33,145 bases of DNA from Armatimonadota bacterium (lineage in GTDB: Bacteria > Armatimonadota > Fimbriimonadia > Fimbriimonadales > ATM1): positions 1-33,145 of the forward strand of contig JAJPJR010000012.1 of assembly GCA_021324165.1 (NCBI GenBank), read 5' to 3'. How positions within the stretch are numbered: position 1 is the first letter of the stretch; every line of letters begins with the position of its first letter. Of this stretch, positions 199-25,335 are shown piece after piece. Both the position numbers and the translations under genes were made by a program. The notes under the pieces are model-generated. The model worked only from the letters and a program-made list of their open reading frames with translations, did not search any database and was not told where the DNA came from.

Positions 199-286
199 CA
201 GAAAAACTGAAACCACCCGTAAACCCAACCTTCACCCTAATGCAGGCTGAAAGGATGCAAAAACTGGAAGCACAAAGAAAACTGAT

Positions 287-363
287 TGGTGGGCCCAGGT
301 AGATTCGAACTACCGACCTCGCCCTTATCAGGGGCGCGCTCTAACCAACTGAGCTATGAGCCC
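287..363 (-). tRNA. tRNA-Ile (anticodon GAU)
   Basis: Read on the minus strand this is a full 77-nt cloverleaf with encoded CCA (287-289). The acceptor arms GGGCTCA and TGGGCCC pair with one wobble. The D arm, the TTCGAAT T-loop and an anticodon loop with GAT at 327-329 are all present. A possible minus-strand -10 box TATACT lies at 376-381, giving a very short 5' leader. No convincing -35 is visible. Confidence 0.96.
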
Positions 364-4162: not shown

Positions 4163-6007
4163 ATGCTTTCACATCCACTAACGGCCCTGAAAAGGCTCTT
4201 TTTCGGCGCGCCCATCGCCACTTCCCGCGCTCATCACGAACGCTTACCGATTCTTTTCGGCCTTCCGGTTTTCGCAAGCGACGCGATCTCCTCGGTCGCC
4301 TATGCCACCGAGGAGATTCTGCTGGTCTTGGCGGCGTCCACCACTGTGGCGTTGGGAAGCGTGGTTTGGATTTCGATCGCGATCGCCGGATTGGTTGGGA
4401 TCGTGGTTTTCAGCTATGTCCGGACGATTCATGCGTACCCTCAGGGCGGCGGGGGATACAGGGTTTCCAGCGACAACATCGGTTCAAGGCTGGGCAGGGT
4501 GGCAGGCGCAGCGCTTCTGATTGATTACGTTCTTACGGTTGCGGTGAGCGTCAGCAGCGGAGTTTTGGCAATCGCCTCGGCGTATCCGGCAACCAAGCCG
4601 TACATCGTTGAAATCGGTTTGATGTGCATCGGGATTATGGCGTGGGTGAACCTGCGGGGAACCCGCGAGAGCGGCTTGGTGTTTGCGATTCCCACCTATC
4701 TTTTCATCACGTTGATTTTGGGCTTGATTATTGTGGGACTGTTGGGAGCGGGGCGGGGTGTCGGCCCGCTGACCAGCGCCGAAGCGATCCGCCCTGACCA
4801 GACTCTGGCGCAAGCGTCGGCGCTTTGGATCATTCTGCGCGCTTTCGCGGCGGGATGCACGGCGCTTACCGGAATCGAGGCGATTGCCGACGGCGCGGGA
4901 GCGTTTCGCCCTCCGGAAGCCGTGAACGCCAGCAGAACGCTCATTCTGCTTGGCGTTGTGCTGACGTCGTTGTTCGTGGGAGTGAGTTGGCTCGCATCGC
5001 ATTACGGCGTCGCGCCGATCAGCCTTTCGAGCCCGAACTACAAAACGGTTCTGGCCCAGCTCAACGAAGGCTTGTTCGGAAACGGCGTGCTGTTTTACAC
5101 GCTGCAGATCACCACGATGGCGATTCTGATTTTGGCTGCCAACACCGCATTTGCCGACTTTCCCCGGTTGTGCAGTTTTATCGCCCGCGACAGTTACATG
5201 CCCCGCCAACTTGCGAACTTGGGCGACAGGCTGGTTTATCAAAACGGAATTCTTCTGCTCGCGTTTTGTGCGGGGATGCTGATTTTTGTGTTTCACGGCG
5301 ACACGCACCGTTTGATTCCGCTGTATGCGGTGGGAGTGTTCACTTCGTTCACGCTGAGCCAAACAGGAATGGTTGCGCGCCAAATAAGGATGAAGCAGCC
5401 GCTGTGGGGAATCGTTGCAAGCGCGATCGGTGCCGTTACCACAGGCGGCGTGATGCTGGTGATTCTGATCACGAAGTTTCACGACGGCGCGTGGATTGTG
5501 GTGATTACCGCCACCTTGCTGCTGCTTTTCTTCGCTTGGGTTCGGCGGCATTACGACTATCTGGCCGAAGAGTTGAACGTGGCGCCCGATGAACGCGTGC
5601 CCATTTCCGATACGACCGTTTTGCTGCTGGTGCCGCGCATTCATCGCGGAGTGCTGAACGCGATATCCTATGCCCGCACTTTGAGCCATGACTGCAGGGC
5701 GGTGCACATCACCATCAACCCCGAATCGGTTCCGAAAATGGTGGAAGAGTGGGAAAAGCATGCGCCCGATATTCCGCTTGTGATTTTGGAATCTTCGTAC
5801 CGATCGCTGGTCGAGCCGCTGATGGAATATATTGACGAGGCGGTGGGCGAAAGGCCGAACCATTTTCTCACGGTGATCGTTCCGCAGGCCGTGCCGAAGC
5901 ATTGGTGGCAGGGAATCTTGCACAATAATGCAGCGATTCCAATCAAAATGGCGCTTGCAAGCCGCAAGAATGTTGTCATAACCAACTTGAGGTATTTCTT
6001 GGACTGA
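4163..6007 (+). CDS. KimA-type potassium transporter (APC/KUP-related), copy 1
   Basis: A 614-residue membrane protein with about 12 hydrophobic segments (roughly 30-455) and a cytoplasmic C-terminal domain of about 150 residues. The blocks FASDAISSVAYATEE, HAYPQGGGGYRVSSDNIG and CTALTGIEA match Bacillus subtilis KimA (YdaO), a high-affinity proton-coupled K+ importer controlled by c-di-AMP. D40, Y47, D121 and E239 align, from memory, with acidic and Tyr positions important in that protein. The generic alternative name is APC-family amino-acid permease. Its stop overlaps the start of the STAS-USP gene (TGATG), implying coupled translation. A paralogue lies at 23461-25335. Family assignment is confident; the substrate is inferred. 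Confidence 0.82.
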   Translation: MLSHPLTALKRLFFGAPIATSRAHHERLPILFGLPVFASDAISSVAYATEEILLVLAASTTVALGSVVWISIAIAGLVGIVVFSYVRTIHAYPQGGGGYRVSSDNIGSRLGRVAGAALLIDYVLTVAVSVSSGVLAIASAYPATKPYIVEIGLMCIGIMAWVNLRGTRESGLVFAIPTYLFITLILGLIIVGLLGAGRGVGPLTSAEAIRPDQTLAQASALWIILRAFAAGCTALTGIEAIADGAGAFRPPEAVNASRTLILLGVVLTSLFVGVSWLASHYGVAPISLSSPNYKTVLAQLNEGLFGNGVLFYTLQITTMAILILAANTAFADFPRLCSFIARDSYMPRQLANLGDRLVYQNGILLLAFCAGMLIFVFHGDTHRLIPLYAVGVFTSFTLSQTGMVARQIRMKQPLWGIVASAIGAVTTGGVMLVILITKFHDGAWIVVITATLLLLFFAWVRRHYDYLAEELNVAPDERVPISDTTVLLLVPRIHRGVLNAISYARTLSHDCRAVHITINPESVPKMVEEWEKHAPDIPLVILESSYRSLVEPLMEYIDEAVGERPNHFLTVIVPQAVPKHWWQGILHNNAAIPIKMALASRKNVVITNLRYFLD

Positions 6008-10723: not shown

Positions 10724-11850
10724 ATGTTGACAAAGAAACGATGACGCTGCTCGACTCGAAATACGACGGGTATTTAGAGGGCAGATTGGTGGACGGATTC
10801 ATCCACGATTTTGGAATCAGATTTGCGGCCGGTCACTGGTGCGCTGGTGAATTCTTCGATAGATTTTGTCCTGTGGGCTACAACAGCAACGATCCCAATT
10901 TCAAAGACACAATTCCCGACCAGATCGAACGCGTGGCAAAAGCAGGCATCAAAGGCATCGAGTTTCATGAACGCAGTTTCATTGATTCGCATTACGCCGT
11001 TGATCAACAAGCTGTCAACGCCATTTCATCGGCCCTCATTCAACACGGTGTCATTCCTACCAACATGAACATGAACACCTGGACCGATCCGAAGTGGAAG
11101 TTTGGCGGCATCACGCATCCCGATTCGGGCGTTCGCAAAGAGTGCGTTGATCTTTGCCTGCAAGGCATCGAGATCGCAAAAACCATCGGCTGCGTGAGCG
11201 GAAACTTATGGCCGGGATCCGATGGGTGGGATTATCACTTCGAAACCGATTATGGCAAACGGTTTTCGTGGTACATCGAAGGCTGCACCGCCATTGCCGA
11301 ACGCGCCGACAAGCTTGGCCTGAAATTTGGCACCGAACCCAAACAGAAAGAGCCGCGCGAAGGAAACATGATCGTGAACACCGTTGCCAAAGCCGCGCTG
11401 GTAGCCCAAGAGGTAAACAAAAATCTGGGCAAAACCGTTATGGGAGTGGTGATTGATTATGGCCACGAACAGATGGTGGGCAACACGCCTGCCGATTCGC
11501 TCTATATGCTCAAGCGCGTGGGTGTGCCCATCGCCAATTTTCACATCAACGGCGCGAAATACAACAGCAACGATGAAGATCGCATCGCCGGAACCGACGA
11601 TGTGTGGAGGCTGATCGAATTCTGCTATGCGGCCATTGACACAGGCTACGACGGCTGGTTTGGAGAAGACCAGTTCACCTATCGCACTGAGCAGACAAGA
11701 TCCATGCGCCAAAGCATGGAGTTTTTTGCAAACTGCATGAAAAAGGCGTTGAAAATCTACGCGCGCAAATCCGATCTCGACGCGGCAATGACCACTGGAG
11801 ATGCATGCAACACCATTGATGTAGTGAAAAAAATTATTTACAACGGATAG
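10720..11850 (+). CDS. Xylose-isomerase-like TIM-barrel sugar isomerase/epimerase
   Basis: The 376-residue protein belongs to the AP-endonuclease-2/xylose isomerase-like fold. Candidate metal ligands occur in the family order: E206 in GTEPKQKEPREG, D246 with H249 in VIDYGHE, H275 in NFHINGAK and E316 in WFGEDQF. The EPK.xEP block resembles true xylose isomerase. The substrate cannot be told from sequence; xylose, rhamnose or an inositol-type sugar are all possible. The start is supported by AGGAGA (10708-10713) with 6-base spacing and by ATGA overlap with the Sua5-type gene. It converges with the DUF72 gene, with only 7 bases between the stops. Confidence 0.75.
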   Translation: MNVDKETMTLLDSKYDGYLEGRLVDGFIHDFGIRFAAGHWCAGEFFDRFCPVGYNSNDPNFKDTIPDQIERVAKAGIKGIEFHERSFIDSHYAVDQQAVNAISSALIQHGVIPTNMNMNTWTDPKWKFGGITHPDSGVRKECVDLCLQGIEIAKTIGCVSGNLWPGSDGWDYHFETDYGKRFSWYIEGCTAIAERADKLGLKFGTEPKQKEPREGNMIVNTVAKAALVAQEVNKNLGKTVMGVVIDYGHEQMVGNTPADSLYMLKRVGVPIANFHINGAKYNSNDEDRIAGTDDVWRLIEFCYAAIDTGYDGWFGEDQFTYRTEQTRSMRQSMEFFANCMKKALKIYARKSDLDAAMTTGDACNTIDVVKKIIYNG

Positions 11851-18720: not shown

Positions 18721-19835
18721 TGTTCAAACTATTCAGCAGAAAAAAGAGAGGCGGCGGCCCGCCGCAGGGTGACACCGCGCCCGCACTTGCGCGCGGGTCC
18801 ATTACTCCGTACCGTTTTCCTGGCGCGGCCCAAGAGATCGCTGGCCAAAAACTGGATCTTTCGGTTTATGACCAGATGATGACCGATCCGCTTGTGAAAT
18901 CGGCAATCACAGTCAAAAAACTTGGAACCCTCGCAGCGCCGTATCGCATTGTGGCCGCGAACGATTCACCCGATGCGGCAATTCGCCTGCGATTCATCGA
19001 ATACGTGATTCAAGAGATGCGCTCCGATGTGCACAACGTGCTGATTGACACGCTCGACTGTCTGGTCAAAGGGTATTCGGTGCAGGAGAAAATCTACGTT
19101 GAAGATGACCGCGAGTTTCCAGGCAAAATCCGAATCGAAGCGATCAAGTCGAAAGATCCTGCGATGTTCGGCTTCGAAGTGGATGAGTTTTTGAACATCC
19201 GCTCCGTCACGCTCACGGTGCCGGGAGAGCAGCCGAGGTCGCTTCCGGTTTCGAAGTTCATTCTGTTTGCAAACAACCAGGTGTATGGTCAGCCCGGCGG
19301 AGAATCCGACCTAAGGCCCGCCTATCGTCATTGGAAGATCAAGAATGAACTGATCAAACAGTGGTCGGCGCATCTGGAAAAGTTCGCTTCACCCACAGTA
19401 ACAGGAAAATTCCGCCGGGGCACACCGCCCGAGGATCAAGCGGCTTTGTTGAACGCATTGGACAAAATTCAGCGTCAAAGCGCCGTGGTGTATCCCGATG
19501 ACATCGAGGTGGGGTTGTTGATGGGCGATCGGCCGGGTGTCAGCGGATATTTGGAAGCGATTGACTATCACAACCGCGAAATCGCGAGGGCGATATTGGG
19601 TCAAACACTCACGACCGAAGATTCGCGCCGAATCGGCTCGCTCGCATTGGGAAAAGTGCACTTGCAGGTGCTGATTATGCAGCTTGCCGGACTGCGAAGA
19701 AACCTGGCGGAACGTGTGATGAACGAACAGGTCATCCGCCCGCTGATCGAACTGAATTTTGGTCCTGGGCTGTATCCAAAACTCGCTTTCGAAGAGCCCG
19801 ACTTAGACGTGTTTAGAACGGGCAAGGTGGTCTAA
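18720..19835 (+). CDS. Phage portal protein (DUF935/Mu gp29-like)
   Basis: The portal forms the ring through which DNA enters the capsid. The 371 residues match the DUF935-type portal pattern: YDQMMTDPLVKSAITVKK, LVKGYSVQEKIY, a central SKFILFANNQVYGQPGGESDLRPAYRHW-like block (split here by position 19254-19330), an FASPTVTGKF segment and IARAILGQTLTTEDS. It is shorter than Mu gp29 (about 510 residues), lacking much of the C-terminal part. AGGAG (18707-18711) lies 8 bases before the ATG. The stop is only 23 bases before tRNA-Ala. Together with TerL it forms a two-gene phage-derived island. Confidence 0.8.
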   Translation: MFKLFSRKKRGGGPPQGDTAPALARGSITPYRFPGAAQEIAGQKLDLSVYDQMMTDPLVKSAITVKKLGTLAAPYRIVAANDSPDAAIRLRFIEYVIQEMRSDVHNVLIDTLDCLVKGYSVQEKIYVEDDREFPGKIRIEAIKSKDPAMFGFEVDEFLNIRSVTLTVPGEQPRSLPVSKFILFANNQVYGQPGGESDLRPAYRHWKIKNELIKQWSAHLEKFASPTVTGKFRRGTPPEDQAALLNALDKIQRQSAVVYPDDIEVGLLMGDRPGVSGYLEAIDYHNREIARAILGQTLTTEDSRRIGSLALGKVHLQVLIMQLAGLRRNLAERVMNEQVIRPLIELNFGPGLYPKLAFEEPDLDVFRTGKVV

Positions 19836-20980
19836 CGGTAAAATGGGTGACTCGCCCCGGGGGTATAGCTCAGTTGGGAGAGCACCTGCTTTGCAAGCAG
19901 GGGGTCAGGGGTTCGAGTCCCCTTACCTCCACCAAACTCCGTTTCGGCGCGGATGCCGTTTTGCGTCCATGCGGCAATGGCAAGCTTGCCGTCGGGCGAA
20001 CTCGCGATCACAGGCGATGTGCCGGTTCCGCTGAGTTTTCTTGTGGGCTGACCGCCGATTTTGCAAAACACAGCACCATCCAAGCACCACACAACGGCAA
20101 AGCCCGCGCTGCAAGAAGCGATCCACGGATTGGAGCCTTGCGAAACGAACGCCTCGGGTCCGCCCGGCGCCGCGGTGAAAACCGATGCGTCTCTGCGCCA
20201 TGCCGTAAGCAGCGAGCCCTGCGGATCGAGGGCGAGCATTCCGCCATCCATGGGGCAGGCATCCAGCCGCCAGCTGCCGGTTCCCAACTTGCGCGCGGGA
20301 CCGAACGTGCGAAGATCGGAAGTTTCGATCAGGTACATGTCGCGGTTTCCGTCCATCACGTTGCGAAACATGATGTGCAGACGGTTTTGCAAATCGAATG
20401 CCAGCGATGGATGACAACATTGACAGATCGTTCCACTGGGCGATGCATACACAAGAACGTTTTTCGACCAGTTGAGCCCGGCATCTTTGGAGATTGAAAG
20501 ATAAAGCCGCGTTCCTTGATCGCGCAGATCGAGCCATGTGCAAGCGATGGTTCCATCGGGAGCGACGGCCATCGCATGCAAGCCCTCGCGCGCTGAGCCT
20601 GTTGCGTCGTTTACTTTCGTTGGCTTCGACCACGTTCTGCCCAAATCAATCGAGCGGAACGCGTACAGATCTCCATCGCGCCCGCCGCCCGTCGCGCCAA
20701 ACGTGGCAGTTACGGTGATCGTGCCATTGTGAGTTACGATTCTTGGGCCGCGCCGCATGCCAAGCGAGAGTTTTCCTGCCGAGCCGACGAGGATCGGAGC
20801 GCCGTAACTCTTTCCTTCATCTTTTGACACCGAAATGTACAGATCGCTGCCCAAGCCGTAAGCGATGCAAACCGTATGGTCAGAACCGATTGCGATTTGG
20901 GGTTCGCGCGCGCCCGAAAACTCTGGCGGGGTTACCGCCACCGGCCCGGGCGCGCACACGATCAATGGGCAGAAGATCAT
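19832..20980 (-). CDS. BNR/Asp-box propeller protein with CQCCHP motif; 3' end runs through antisense tRNA-Ala
   Basis: The 382-codon frame has three Asp boxes (SKDEGKSYG, SIDLGRTWS, SKDAGLNWS) typical of sialidase-like beta-propellers. CQCCHP (186-191) and ACPMDG (241-246) look like metal or disulfide sites; sialidase catalytic residues are not obvious. The N-terminus (MIFCPLIVCAPGP) is a weak export signal. Residues 350-382 come entirely from the antisense of tRNA-Ala and its promoter; the last propeller strand (LAIAAWTQNGIRAE) is complete just before. The native stop was therefore probably lost, and the frame reads to a TAG opposite the portal stop. It overlaps the YHS gene (ATGA) and ends the metal-handling operon. 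A true sialidase role is unlikely. Confidence 0.72.
   Translation of the reverse strand: MIFCPLIVCAPGPVAVTPPEFSGAREPQIAIGSDHTVCIAYGLGSDLYISVSKDEGKSYGAPILVGSAGKLSLGMRRGPRIVTHNGTITVTATFGATGGGRDGDLYAFRSIDLGRTWSKPTKVNDATGSAREGLHAMAVAPDGTIACTWLDLRDQGTRLYLSISKDAGLNWSKNVLVYASPSGTICQCCHPSLAFDLQNRLHIMFRNVMDGNRDMYLIETSDLRTFGPARKLGTGSWRLDACPMDGGMLALDPQGSLLTAWRRDASVFTAAPGGPEAFVSQGSNPWIASCSAGFAVVWCLDGAVFCKIGGQPTRKLSGTGTSPVIASSPDGKLAIAAWTQNGIRAETEFGGGKGTRTPDPLLAKQVLSQLSYTPGASHPFYR
19839..19844 (+). promoter_or_regulatory. -10 box (TAAAAT) for tRNA-Ala
   Basis: TAAAAT lies 14 bases before the mature tRNA 5' end, directly after the portal stop. A transcription start near 19851 would leave a pre-tRNA leader of about 8 nt. 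No clear -35 is visible. Confidence 0.4.
19859..19934 (+). tRNA. tRNA-Ala (anticodon UGC)
   Basis: A complete 76-nt cloverleaf with encoded CCA (19932-19934). Acceptor arms are GGGGGTA and TACCTCC (one G-T wobble), the anticodon loop TTTGCAA has TGC at 19892-19894, and the T-loop is TTCGAGT. It lies 23 bases after the phage-type portal gene and is antisense to the 3' end of the BNR-propeller reading frame. Confidence 0.97.
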
Positions 20981-21252
20981 TTGGCCTTAGGAAGTTTGAT
21001 GTGCGGTTTGTTCGCGTATTTTTTCGGATTCTTTTTGAATTTCGAGGGACAGTCCGAGCAGCAGAAAAAATACCGATTGCCTTTGTAATCTGCATAAAGA
21101 TGCGATTTTTTGGCTTTGTCCATGTCCACTTTGTCTCCCGTAACAGGACACGCAATAACGTGCTTCGCTTTTGGCGAGATTTTGTGGCCCATTTGGGCAC
21201 TCGCGCCCAGGGCTGCGCACAAGGCCAGTGCAAGAATGATGACTGTTTTCAT
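20977..21252 (-). CDS. Exported YHS-domain metal-binding protein
   Basis: A 91-residue protein with a signal peptide (1-20, ending ASAQ) and one YHS-type domain: ACPVTGDKV with C35, then NRYFFCCSDCPSKFKKNPKKYA with C64, C65 and C68. YHS domains bind copper and other soft metals in P-type ATPases and small chaperones, so a periplasmic metal-binding role is likely. The C-terminal tail is Lys-rich. AGGAGA (21259-21264) has 6-base spacing to the ATG. It lies 17 bases after the barrel gene and overlaps the propeller gene, so the three are one operon. Confidence 0.85.
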   Translation of the reverse strand: MKTVIILALALCAALGASAQMGHKISPKAKHVIACPVTGDKVDMDKAKKSHLYADYKGNRYFFCCSDCPSKFKKNPKKYANKPHIKLPKAK

Positions 21253-21269
21253 GAGAGTTCTCCTATAGG

Positions 21270-22823
21270 TTAGTGATTATGCTCCATTCGAGCAGGGCGC
21301 AGGCGCAAGAACACGCCGAGCGTTACGGGACTTTTGCCATAAAACGGTTCGAGTGATTTCGGGAATATGTAGAAACCAGCATACGCCCCAACTCCCAATT
21401 CCGTTTCGTTTTGCTTTTTCAAGTTCCAAACTCCGCCCAAAAGGAATTTGTTGATCATGTAAGTGCCAGGAGACACCCCTTCCAACTCGTTTTTCATCAC
21501 GTGTTCCCACCTGGCAAAAACTGAGGCGGGACCCGTGAGATACGTGGCTTCAAGCAGAATCGAATCGAAGTTATCGCCTTGCACGATGTTTCTGCCGAAT
21601 GCGGCGGTCGCCGAAAGATTATCACCGTTGCGAAGCGGCTGACTGTAGATGAGCGCCGCCGTCAACCGGTGCTGATCAATCCCCGGCTCCTTCGATTCAG
21701 GAGATTTCAGATAGCCGTACGATGTGTTCATGGAAAGGTTCTTGTTCGGATTGAATGTCAACCGCGCAGAAGCGGAATTCAAACGGATCGGATCGGGCGA
21801 ATATCGGTTTTCATCGGGCTCTTTGCCGTTGAACGCCGAGGCTTCGATCTGCCACTGATCGCTGTTGATTCCTGCGGTGGCAACGCCCCACGCGATGTGC
21901 GTGCTGTCGAACCAGTGATGCGAAATCGGAGCCTCTGGAATCTCCATTCCGCTCGGACGATGCATGAAAGTTGGGCCGCCAAGTGCGGGCTCGCCAACGG
22001 GCGCCAGATACACGAACGCGTTGGTTTTTTCGGCGATAGGATGACTGTAAGTCATCGCAGCCTCAGCCACATAGTCGTGCGGGTGTTGATAGTCAGTCAA
22101 AGGCTTCCCGTATGCGGTTTCGCCGGTTTGAAACAGATCGGGATAGCCGAACTCTCCGTTGAAAACCGGATCGAGCGAAACCATGCCGCTGAATCCGAGA
22201 GTTCCGCCGCCGGTTTCCCTTCTTGCCATCAGCATCAGCATCGAGTTGGAATAAAACCGGCTGTCGCCGCGTTTTCCGCCGCTGTCGCTGGTGTTCATGG
22301 TGATGAACCCCATCGCATTCAGGTCATATCGTCCTGATTTTGGAAGGGCTGCCATGAACATCGGCGAGGATTCGGGAAGCCATGCCGTGCCCGAACCCTC
22401 TTTTTGCATGTTCCAGCTGCCGAGCCTTCCGAGCATCTGCATCGTCATCTCTGCAGAACCGCTCGATTTGACTTTGAAGTCAAAGTACTTTTTGGCAGGC
22501 TTGTGAGCTGGCGCTTCGACCAAAACCGCAACGCGCCACGGCCCAGCCATGCTGAAGTTCACGGTTGCGGTGTACGTTCCGTCTTTTTTGTTTTCGACAT
22601 CGGGATGTTTCGTCCCCATGTCCATGTTCGTCATGCCGACGGTCAACGTGACTTTCGCATTGGCGATGCGATGGCCTTTTGCATCGGTCAGGGTGATCGT
22701 CAGCGGGTTGTCTCCAACTGCCGGAGGCCCGGCAAGGCTGGCTTTGATTTCGACATCTTGTGCGAGCGCGAACGCGTTTGCGCATGCAAGCGCGAATGCA
22801 ATGAGAGAAATGACAGTTTTCAC
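21270..22823 (-). CDS. YtkA-like domain fused to a predicted outer-membrane beta-barrel
   Basis: The 517-residue protein starts at GTG 22823, set by AGGAGG (22831-22836) at 7-base spacing and by a good signal peptide (to about residue 22). Residues 23-118 resemble the FixH/YtkA-type Ig-like fold, with a Met-rich GMTNMDMGTKHP and SMAGPWRVAVLVEAP. The remainder has alternating hydrophobic strands and ends in LGVFLRLRPARMEHNH, suggesting an outer-membrane barrel. A conserved-looking QHPHD (246-250) and SHHWFDSTH (301-309) offer candidate metal-binding His residues. From memory, barrel proteins with this HPHD block occur near copper-efflux genes, but I could not verify that. The gene sits between the Cys-rich and YHS genes. 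Confidence 0.65.
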   Translation of the reverse strand: MKTVISLIAFALACANAFALAQDVEIKASLAGPPAVGDNPLTITLTDAKGHRIANAKVTLTVGMTNMDMGTKHPDVENKKDGTYTATVNFSMAGPWRVAVLVEAPAHKPAKKYFDFKVKSSGSAEMTMQMLGRLGSWNMQKEGSGTAWLPESSPMFMAALPKSGRYDLNAMGFITMNTSDSGGKRGDSRFYSNSMLMLMARRETGGGTLGFSGMVSLDPVFNGEFGYPDLFQTGETAYGKPLTDYQHPHDYVAEAAMTYSHPIAEKTNAFVYLAPVGEPALGGPTFMHRPSGMEIPEAPISHHWFDSTHIAWGVATAGINSDQWQIEASAFNGKEPDENRYSPDPIRLNSASARLTFNPNKNLSMNTSYGYLKSPESKEPGIDQHRLTAALIYSQPLRNGDNLSATAAFGRNIVQGDNFDSILLEATYLTGPASVFARWEHVMKNELEGVSPGTYMINKFLLGGVWNLKKQNETELGVGAYAGFYIFPKSLEPFYGKSPVTLGVFLRLRPARMEHNH

Positions 22824-22845
22824 TTTCTTACCTCCTGGAAAATCT

Positions 22846-22879
22846 GATTCACGCACGAAAAATCGTGCAAGCAAGAATC
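22846..22879. promoter_or_regulatory. Inverted repeat between the Cys-rich and barrel genes
   Basis: GCACGA (22853-22858) and TCGTGC (22863-22868) form a perfect hairpin with an AAAA loop. Outer arms GATTC (22846-22850) and GAATC (22875-22879) extend it with an internal bulge, overlapping the Cys-rich stop. No T-run follows on the minus strand. It may be an operator for a metal-responsive regulator or an attenuator. Confidence 0.4.
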
Positions 22880-23255
22880 AGATGACAGGAGGCGCCCGAC
22901 CGAGGTCGGGCAGAACAGTGGGTGGCTTGATGCTCCTCGCGGGGGAATCTGCCGCTTGGGGCAGCAAACCGCGCTGAATGGGGATTTCGATGCGAGGGAG
23001 AATCAGAGGTTCGAGCGGGTGATGGGTTCGGACGGGAGTGGCGCTGGCTGCCGAACCTGGGGTTTGAATCGAGCACACGCACGCGGCCGGGATGGGGGCA
23101 GCGGATTCGGTTTTGCAGCAAGTTTTAGGTTGGGCGGTTTGGCAGCAGCCGCAGGCAAGATGGCTTTCGCCCGCGGGCAGCGGCGCGATTGCGCCGGCGA
23201 GGCTTTGGAGCGCCAGCCCGAGCGAGGCGGTGAGGTTCACCAAAAGTCGCATCAT
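22878..23255 (-). CDS. Cys-rich exported small protein, possible metal-binding
   Basis: Not a family I recognise. From the ATG at 23255 (an adjacent ATG at 23252 is equally possible) it has 125 residues: a signal-like N-terminus (LLVNLTASLGLALQSLAGAIA), then seven Cys in a short span as CGCC (35-38), CC (46-47) and CVC (59-61), then a Pro-rich tail with a THHP motif. CxCC, CC and CxC pairs are typical of soft-metal ligands. No strong ribosome site is visible. It is the first gene of the minus-strand cluster and lies divergent from the second KimA gene. The leader before it holds a possible minus-strand -10 (TATAGC near 23300). Confidence 0.5.
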   Translation of the reverse strand: MMRLLVNLTASLGLALQSLAGAIAPLPAGESHLACGCCQTAQPKTCCKTESAAPIPAACVCSIQTPGSAASATPVRTHHPLEPLILPRIEIPIQRGLLPQAADSPARSIKPPTVLPDLGRAPPVI

Positions 23256-23407: not shown

Positions 23408-23464
23408 ATGCGAACGTTTATTTTGGCGCCGAGCCTGACGCGGCGCGCCGGGTGGCGAGGATGA
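23408..23464 (+). CDS. 18-residue upstream ORF coupled to the second KimA gene
   Basis: ATG 23408 follows AAGGAG (23396-23401) at 6-base spacing, the best ribosome site in this region. It encodes an 18-residue basic, mostly non-hydrophobic peptide (MRTFILAPSL start, RRAGWRG end). Its TGA (23462-23464) overlaps the ATG of the transporter (23461), giving ATGA. The transporter start has no ribosome site of its own, so ribosomes probably reach it by translating this leader. The peptide has no recognisable domain; a purely coupling role is likely. Confidence 0.55.
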   Translation: MRTFILAPSLTRRAGWRG

Positions 23465-25335
23465 TCGCCCAACCGAGAGTTTCCCCTTTCCGCAAAATCA
23501 AGCATTTTCTTTTCGGCACACCGATACCCAGTTCGAGAGCGCATCACGAAACGTTGGGGATCGTGACCGGTCTGCCCGTTTTCGCTTCGGACAATTTGTC
23601 TTCGAGCGCGTATGCCACCGAAGCGATTCTGAGTGTGTTGGTACTTTACGGCGCGCAGCTGGCGGCGCTGCAGTTGTGGATTGCGCTTGGCATCGCTTTG
23701 TTGATTGGGATGGTGGCCTGGTCATATAAGCAGACGATTTACGCTTATCCGGGCGGGGGCGGGTCGTATATCGTTGCGAGTGACAACTTGGGAGAAACTC
23801 CCGGCTTGATCGCGGGCGCGGCGCTGCTGATTGATTATGTTTTGACTGTGTCGGTTTCGGTTGCGGCGGGAGTTGCAGCGATCACATCGGCGTTTCCTGC
23901 GCTGCATCACGACTTGGTGTTGCTGAGCGTTGCGTGCATCGCATTTATTGCATTTGGAAACCTGCGCGGAGTGCGCGAATCGGGTGCACTGTTTTCGCTG
24001 CCCACGTACGGCTTTCTGCTTTCGATGGCGCTGCTGCTGACTTTTGGAATTGTGAAAGCGCTGACGACGCCGGCTCACCCTCAGGTTTTCGTTTCCGATC
24101 CGGGCGCCATCGGCAGCGAGGCGGCCCTGCCGCTGCTGTTTGTGGTGCTGCGATCGTTTGCGGCCGGATGCACGGCGCTTACCGGGATTGAAGCGGTGAG
24201 CAACGGTGTGCCCGCGTTCCGTGAGCCCGCGCCGCGAAACGCCTCGCGCACCCTTTTGATTATGGCGACGATTTTGACGGTGTTGTTTGTGGGGCTTGGA
24301 GTGATCACGCAGCATCTGCCAAAAATCGAGCTGTATTCCACATCGAACCCCGCTTATTCCACGCTGGTTTCTCAAATTGCGGCGTGGACGTTCGGCCATG
24401 GAACCGTTTTGTATTTTTTTGTGCAGTTTGCGACGGCTGCGATTTTGATATTGGCTGCCAACACAAGTTTTATGGATTTTCCGCGGTTGTCGAGCCTTTT
24501 GTCGCGTGACGGATACCTTCCTCGATCGCTCGCACGCCAGGGCGACAGGCTGGTGTTTCAGAACGGGATCGTGCTGTTGGCAGTTGCATCGGCTGCGCTC
24601 GTGTTTGTTTATCACGGCGAATTGGATCAACTGCTTCCGCTTTATGCCGTAGGCGTTTTCATGGCGTTTACACTTTCGCAGGTTGGAATGGTGGTTCATT
24701 GGCGGAAGTTGAAAGAGAAGGGCCACGGTTTCAGCGTGGCGATCAATGCGGTTGGCGCGATTGCGACAGGGATCGTAACCTTGGTTTTGTTCGTTACGAA
24801 GTTTTCGGAAGGCGCTTGGCTGATCGCGGTGTTGACGGTGCTGTTTTATTCGGGGTTTCGGCTGATCAAGGGGCGTTACAACTCGATCACCAAGCAGCTG
24901 GTGGAAGGCATCGGAACTGCCGGGCCGCGCGGCAGACATTCGGTTTTGATTCTGGTTCCCAGAATCCACCGCGGCATTTTGAAGGCGGTGAATTATGCGA
25001 TGGGGCTTCACAGCGATGAGATCAGGGCGCTGCACGTATCCATCAACCCGAAGAGTGTGCCGGAACTACGTGAGCAGTGGGACAAGTACGCGGCCTCGAT
25101 TCCGTTGATCGTTTTGGAATCTCCTTATCGGTCGCTGATTGATCCGGTGCTGGAATATGTTGACCAGATCAGGGCCGATCAGCCTGGCGAGACAGTGACG
25201 GTGATTGTTCCCGAAGCGGTTTCAACCAAATGGTATCAAAGGTTTTTGCAGGAGAACATCGCATCGCAGCTGAAGAGCGCGCTGGGCAGCAGGCAGAATG
25301 TGGTGGTTACGAACGTGCGGTACTTTTTGGACTGA
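23461..25335 (+). CDS. KimA-type potassium transporter (APC/KUP-related), copy 2
   Basis: A 624-residue paralogue of the transporter at 4163-6007, with the same layout: about 12 membrane segments and a soluble C-terminal domain ending NVRYFLD (NLRYFLD in copy 1). Key blocks are FASDNLSSSAYATEA, YAYPGGGGSYIVASDNLG and CTALTGIEAVSNG; D44, Y51, D125 and E244 occupy the conserved positions noted for copy 1. Here the AYP loop has PGGGG where copy 1 has PQGGGG. The ATG at 23461 overlaps the upstream ORF; an in-frame GTG at 23452 is less likely. Unlike copy 1 it has no STAS-USP partner but has a long structured leader, so the two copies are probably regulated differently. Confidence 0.82.
   Translation: MIAQPRVSPFRKIKHFLFGTPIPSSRAHHETLGIVTGLPVFASDNLSSSAYATEAILSVLVLYGAQLAALQLWIALGIALLIGMVAWSYKQTIYAYPGGGGSYIVASDNLGETPGLIAGAALLIDYVLTVSVSVAAGVAAITSAFPALHHDLVLLSVACIAFIAFGNLRGVRESGALFSLPTYGFLLSMALLLTFGIVKALTTPAHPQVFVSDPGAIGSEAALPLLFVVLRSFAAGCTALTGIEAVSNGVPAFREPAPRNASRTLLIMATILTVLFVGLGVITQHLPKIELYSTSNPAYSTLVSQIAAWTFGHGTVLYFFVQFATAAILILAANTSFMDFPRLSSLLSRDGYLPRSLARQGDRLVFQNGIVLLAVASAALVFVYHGELDQLLPLYAVGVFMAFTLSQVGMVVHWRKLKEKGHGFSVAINAVGAIATGIVTLVLFVTKFSEGAWLIAVLTVLFYSGFRLIKGRYNSITKQLVEGIGTAGPRGRHSVLILVPRIHRGILKAVNYAMGLHSDEIRALHVSINPKSVPELREQWDKYAASIPLIVLESPYRSLIDPVLEYVDQIRADQPGETVTVIVPEAVSTKWYQRFLQENIASQLKSALGSRQNVVVTNVRYFLD

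Follow-up and report, generated by a model that had tools for sequence, protein, structure and literature searches.

The first gene of a four-gene envelope operon in an Armatimonadota bacterium probably encodes a regulatory peptide resembling CutF and CruR, which would mean that translation of this operon is controlled by a nascent chain in response to copper. The operon lies on the minus strand of a 33,145-nucleotide stretch of contig JAJPJR010000012.1 (the window), part of a 2.33 Mb, 97%-complete assembly (GCA_021324165.1). All four open reading frames (ORFs) reported in an earlier sequence-only reading of this DNA were present at the reported positions, and the motifs described there were borne out by the ORFs themselves and by Pfam matches to YtkA, YHS and BNR_2. 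In gene order they are:

22878-23255, minus strand: candidate RAPP arrest-peptide upstream ORF (uORF, gene 1), 125 aa, with a signal-peptide-like N-terminus, a CC...CxC pattern and a C-terminal RAPPVI
21270-22823, minus strand: fusion of a YtkA domain and an outer-membrane barrel, 517 aa, with a GTG start at 22823 and the Shine-Dalgarno (SD) sequence AGGAGGT
20977-21252, minus strand: exported YHS-domain protein, 91 aa, Pfam YHS 9e-11
19832-20980, minus strand: BNR beta-propeller with CQCCHP and ACPMDGG motifs, Pfam BNR_2 2e-11, real homology ending near 19946

The intergenic gaps are 54 nt (uORF to barrel), 17 nt (barrel to YHS) and -4 nt (YHS to BNR), the BNR gene beginning at an ATG that overlaps the end of the YHS gene by 4 nt. 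All four genes are tightly linked and form one compact operon, and not merely the last three, as had been claimed. Relatives of each of the four proteins were found in other genomes within copper neighbourhoods, which puts the arrangement beyond chance.

Gene 1 looks like the built-in regulator of the operon, an arrest-peptide uORF and not a metal carrier, because it combines a conserved C-terminal RAPP with RAPP codons that pair with the SD of the next gene. The sequence-only reading had taken gene 1 for a metal-handling protein, a role that these two features do not support, and its statement that no known regulator is present was wrong in effect. The 125-aa product had no match in Pfam. It has exactly seven cysteines (CGCC, CC and CVC), an N-terminus that is Sec signal-like by inspection (MMRLLVNLTASLGLALQSLAGA) and a C-terminus that reads LGRAPPVI before the stop. 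Among 768 ORFs predicted around relatives, in neighbourhoods fetched without regard to the RAPP motif (a few loci overlap, so that some ORFs were counted twice), RAPP occurred 19 times, 18 of them at most 20 residues from the C-terminus. The ORFs with these 18 C-terminal motifs were small, exported and contained 7-11 Cys in 17 cases, the remaining one being His-rich and located upstream of cusCBA. An alignment of 19 uORF proteins showed C37, C38, C59 and RAPP to be invariant and C61 nearly so; the only features common to all were a CC, a CxC, a PP and RAPP, with a mean column identity of 23%. RAPP was located 1-5 residues before the stop in all uORF relatives. A profile that included the window uORF detected relatives in 57 of 251 genomes, with one copy in the source genome. 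At three loci (L127, L144, L146) the uORF has RGPP in place of RAPP at this C-terminal site, which would be expected if RGPP were an arrest motif too. The His-rich RAPP uORF upstream of the cusCBA-type operon (L082, 1641-2036, plus strand) contains 16 His and no Cys and may sense another metal.

The RAPP codons also form part of a predicted RNA lock on the barrel gene, which consists of the following elements:

22887-22898, minus strand: RAPP codons CGG GCG CCT CCT, the predicted stall site (from the sequence and the RAPP arrest known from CruR)
22886-22893, minus strand: anti-SD GCCUCCUG within the RAPP codons (GCG CCT CCT G), which pairs with 22830-22837
22830-22837, minus strand: SD of the barrel gene, CAGGAGGT / CAGGAGGU, 6 nt before the GTG at 22823
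22830-22893, minus strand: SD-sequestering hairpin with stems of 8, 9 and 6 bp (predicted fold)

The helix between anti-SD and SD has 8 bp, including one closing G-U pair, and was present in both the minimum-energy structure and the centroid, with the 9-bp and 6-bp stems between its strands. The z-score of the fold was -3.6 over 91 nt and -4.1 over 171 nt, and placing a ribosome over RAPP raised the computed probability of an unpaired SD from 0.01 to 0.53. Because the RAPP codons form the anti-SD strand, stalling at RAPP should leave the SD accessible; judged by this RNA anatomy, a stall should mean that the operon is on, as in a CutF/SecM-like switch. Control of the Rho type appears disfavoured because the gap is short (54 nt) and an SD hairpin is predicted.

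Pairing of this kind was also found at other loci of the phylum, where the best complement within 190 nt downstream of each uORF was often situated just upstream of the next start codon. In a first set of 17 pairs, in which start codons were partly hand-chosen, the uORF 3' end paired with its own downstream SD at -14.2 kcal/mol compared to -7.9 kcal/mol for non-cognate combinations (z -7.8; 0 of 20,000 permutations). A second set comprised 30 pairs at loci identified afterwards, with starts assigned by a fixed rule blind to pairing; it gave -14.4 for cognate compared to -9.6 for non-cognate combinations (0 of 20,000 permutations), with a z of -10.0 that is inflated by several sequences being close relatives. 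Ordinary neighbouring gene pairs (n = 165) had a mean of -7.9 and none reached the -19.6 of the window. RNAalifold recovered the helix unaided in the group of uORFs that precede YHS/YtkA genes, with compensatory changes at two pairs, and counting of named pairs gave 94% paired cells compared to 20-40% in slid versions. The pairing strand may include the codons for RAPP, those of the tail or the stop codon, i.e., the positions where a stalled ribosome would sit. At one locus (L060, 7456-7625) a long, near-perfect inverted repeat (computed fold -129 kcal/mol) that is mobile-element-remnant-like lies between the uORF and the barrel gene.

Two proteobacterial peptides offer the closest comparison. 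CruR of Bordetella pertussis (bp2923, DUF2946) is a copper-responsive uORF with a RAPP arrest motif (PMC9426467), and this RAPP stalls in vitro (PMC12992588). CutF, from the cutFOG operon of Rhodobacter capsulatus, is an exported Cys-motif peptide in which a stalling-like delay opens a stem-loop that hides the cutO SD (PMC9973294). Like CutF, the window uORF encodes an exported small protein with a Cys motif and a C-terminal Pro motif, directly upstream of the regulated gene and with a stem-loop over the next SD; it is shorter than 150 aa, has an N-terminal signal (by inspection), PP within its last 15 residues and a Cys motif in the mature part, and is followed on the same strand by a metal gene whose SD is covered by an RNA hairpin. 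CutF differs, however, in having CxxxC and a proline-rich end, with RAPP unmentioned in PMC9973294, and in regulating a multicopper oxidase, whereas the window uORF has CC/CxC and RAPP, uses the RAPP codons themselves as anti-SD and would regulate the YtkA-barrel gene. With CruR it shares the C-terminal RAPP, a Cys motif, export and a position at the head of a copper operon with an outer-membrane protein, but where CruR has a CXXC about 45 residues ahead of RAPP and a gap of 162 nt with a Rho terminator, the window has a CxC with a variable spacer, a short gap and an SD hairpin. The DUF2946 profile (PF11162) did not match the window uORF and matched 2 of the 19 relatives (best E 0.24). The CopL family likewise consists of cis regulators that bind metal and precede copper resistance genes, but its NCBIfam model (NF033807) gave no match to the window uORF and matched 1 of the 19 relatives at 3e-4. 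The window uORF would thus be a new variant of the CutF/CruR/CopL type of regulatory peptide, one controlling an undescribed outer-membrane protein; such a peptide was not described for Armatimonadota in the literature examined.

The protein encoded by the second gene matched Pfam YtkA (PF13115; 1.7e-14, 54.7 bits compared to a cut-off of 25.9), with a weak porin match, and is divided as follows:

22512-22763, minus strand: YtkA-like domain with an MTNMDMGTKH motif, matching PDB 9ll2 'Copper resistance protein' at E 6e-6
21273-22436, minus strand: barrel of about 16 strands with two long loops that carry conserved His (QHPHD; HR..HHWFDSTH), aligned with 26 homologues

Its AlphaFold2 model (mean predicted local distance difference test score, pLDDT, 88.8) consists of the YtkA domain followed by approximately 16 strands, for which the nearest PDB folds were general porins. 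H249, H288, H302 and H309 were invariant in the 26 homologues and H247 and H303 were conserved in at least 90%; the conserved His residues (QHPHD; HR; HHWxDxxH) are located in the two longest loops of the barrel. With a porin topology and a periplasmic N-terminus, the model would place these loops extracellularly or at the constriction, opposite the periplasmic YtkA domain. The copper channel PcoB/CopB is likewise an outer-membrane barrel of copper operons with a Met/His-rich N-terminal part (PMC12509749), but the window protein begins with a folded YtkA domain where PcoB/CopB is disordered, and its barrel is porin-like with about 16 strands and has its own invariant His loops; Pfam CopB gave no match at E up to 1. 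CrdA of Helicobacter pylori (PMC9182242) and YtkA-like copper proteins share the Met motif with the YtkA domain of the window protein, which differs in being fused to a barrel. Neither the barrel nor the propeller matches PcoB/CopB or any curated copper family, and the barrel is a putative undescribed copper-associated outer-membrane protein or channel.

The BNR propeller was modelled by AlphaFold2 with a pLDDT of 90.4 and a predicted template modelling score of 0.90. C186, C188, C189, C242 and M244, which make up a CxCC and a CPM motif, were invariant in 11 homologues, and in the model each motif lies in a loop that precedes a blade, the two blades being consecutive, so that both may plausibly share one face. 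At the C-terminal end of the ORF, ~35 residues are an antisense read-through of tRNA-Ala (19859-19934); homology ends near residue 345 and the relatives end at ...NGIRxxRL. Antisense reading through a tRNA is a classic source of spurious protein tails. It was seen twice in the window, where an ORF end (19832-19945, minus strand) and an ORF start (286-363, plus strand) run antisense through tRNA-Ala and tRNA-Ile (GGGKGTRTPDPLLAKQVLSQLSYTPG and GRFELPTSPLSGARSNQLSYEPDGA). The N-terminus is short, carries no charge and is closely preceded by an in-frame stop, and export of the propeller is likely, judged from its relatives, although not certain. The fold resembles sialidases and homologues are annotated as sialidase, but the copper context would argue against a sialidase function. 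A literature search for copper-linked BNR/sialidase proteins returned nothing relevant.

Neighbourhoods of ~19 kb, where contigs allowed, were compared around relatives. The barrel region itself was found in approximately 30 of 250 other genomes of the phylum, with further genomes matching only the YtkA part, and in none of the seven other genomes of the source family, giving a patchy distribution. Parts of the gene order were conserved: a uORF, a YtkA gene and a barrel occurred together at eight loci (L034, L038, L041, L045, L047, L048, L056, L061), a uORF directly upstream of the barrel at five (the window, L032, L053, L057, L060), a YHS orthologue adjoined the barrel in L036, and BNR relatives were located near the barrel in L098 and L049. 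Neighbours of barrel relatives included CsoR-CopZ-CopA (L033, L038), CsoR-CopA (L041), CopA-YHS with a CusA-like pump (L036) and CopA (L034), and BNR relatives were found directly after CusA and beside CopA (L082), beside CopA (L083) and within ~4 kb of CopA-CsoR (L086). Outside the phylum, the barrel was located near a heavy-metal P-type ATPase on a Sphingobium plasmid, and in Pontibacter it had a copper ATPase on one side and a copper-binding protein on the other. BNR relatives of the Bacteroidota ('sialidase family protein') were flanked in Runella by a multicopper oxidase and an RND pump, and in Adhaeribacter they adjoined P-type ATPases. Copper as the probable metal of the operon is well supported because in three phyla barrel and propeller relatives adjoin CopA, CsoR, CusCBA or multicopper oxidases, and the proposal of an envelope metal operon with an outer-membrane barrel, linked to copper, was upheld by such neighbours (copA, csoR, copZ, cusCBA, multicopper oxidase) in Armatimonadota, Bacteroidota and the Sphingobium plasmid. 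That plasmid (Sphingobium baderi, L104) also carries, in the copper cluster that holds the barrel, a small exported His/Met/Cys ORF ending DRAPPRHGHAHK (11162-11516, minus strand), and RAPP regulation may accompany the barrel outside Armatimonadota. Elsewhere the source genome encodes one CopA-like ATPase (contig C50), distant RND pumps only, one multicopper oxidase and one COX1; CsoR was not found in it by single-protein searches.

In the mechanism we propose, the CC/CxC cysteines of the uORF peptide would report copper during synthesis and export, and the ribosome would stall on RAPP near the end of the uORF. The parked ribosome would occupy the RAPP mRNA, which is the anti-SD strand of the hairpin hiding the barrel SD, leaving the SD free and the barrel translated, and completion of the uORF with no stall would let the hairpin re-form and turn the operon translationally off. 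The products, namely the YtkA/porin-type barrel, the small YHS protein, which is exported, and the Cys/Met propeller, whose location is probably the periplasm, would together bind envelope copper and move it through the outer membrane; export for detoxification is the most likely direction. We infer both the copper responsiveness and the direction of transport, and of the relay from periplasm to outer membrane suggested by the sequence-only reading, the copper envelope operon with its barrel stood, gene 1 as carrier did not, and order and direction stay conjectural. On balance, we lean towards extending this to a phylum-wide class of metal-sensing arrest peptides in Armatimonadota, whose RAPP codons double as anti-SD and give copper control of an undescribed YtkA-porin outer-membrane route. 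Several observations weigh against the reading: the four-gene set was seen together only in the window, which goes half-way towards the refutation named in the sequence-only reading, no copper gene or uORF could be recognised close to many of the barrel loci (several contigs being short), L053 is a clear exception with no cognate pairing and pairing at L088 is weak. In addition, CruR, also a RAPP peptide, has the opposite copper sign and works through Rho (PMC9426467), so that arrest and copper together do not fix the direction.

The sequence is compatible with copper either promoting or relieving the stall. A CutF-like sign, with copper turning the operon on, is favoured because sister uORFs precede efflux/detoxification genes, among them the cusCBA genes at L082 and genes of the multicopper oxidase type at L095 and L097. 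With the sign of CruR, a stall without copper would keep the operon on, copper would relieve it and the barrel would serve copper acquisition or supply. The shared RAPP, whose arrest in CruR is relieved by copper, and the need of the COX1 oxidase and the multicopper oxidase of the genome for copper would fit this, but the efflux context of the sister uORFs and the different Cys spacing, gap and hairpin make it a possible but doubtful alternative. It is rather unlikely that the functional unit is the uORF and barrel only, with YHS and BNR as unrelated passengers: the closest relative (L032) has just these two genes and many BNR homologues occur away from the barrel, but the operon spacing is tight, YHS or BNR accompanies the barrel at L036 and L098, and BNR is found within copper clusters in two phyla. 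RAPP arrest peptides that regulate sec genes are widespread and the uORF peptide is exported, yet a monitor of Sec export (as ApdA, ApdP and SecM) in place of copper is improbable, as the downstream genes are copper and not sec genes and the invariant CC/CxC and the His-rich variants point to a metal ligand. Very improbable is the idea that gene 1 yields a stable metallochaperone which is exported and hands metal on to the barrel as part of a relay; the protein is exported and Cys-rich and its position before the barrel is conserved, but little beyond the C-terminal RAPP and a few Cys is kept while the rest drifts, RAPP stays beside the stop, the 3' end of the ORF base-pairs with the SD that follows, and CutF and CruR were undetected or degraded as proteins (PMC9973294, PMC9426467).

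Diverging directly from the operon is a permease (AA_permease_2; 23452-25335, plus strand), with a similar permease at 4163-6007 (plus strand), both of the amino-acid/potassium type. On the other side, between a SurA-like gene and tRNA-Ala, is a phage remnant (17446-19835, plus strand) comprising a terminase large subunit and a Mu-type portal (Pfam Terminase_6, Portal_Mu). Insertion of an island at tRNA-Ala was considered and rejected, with no repeat of at least 11 nt of the tRNA 3' end within the window.

Copper-sensing nascent peptides are a young topic, and the well-studied CruR and CutF are both proteobacterial and differ in sign and mechanism. The Armatimonadota case, in which RAPP and Cys ligands are joined to an SD lock that shows compensatory changes, would provide a clean, testable example of stalling turned into gene control. 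It would also give a function to small 'hypothetical' ORFs that resemble metallochaperones, and points to two families as candidate copper proteins: uncharacterised outer-membrane barrels, seen in three phyla, and 'sialidase-like' propellers, seen in two.

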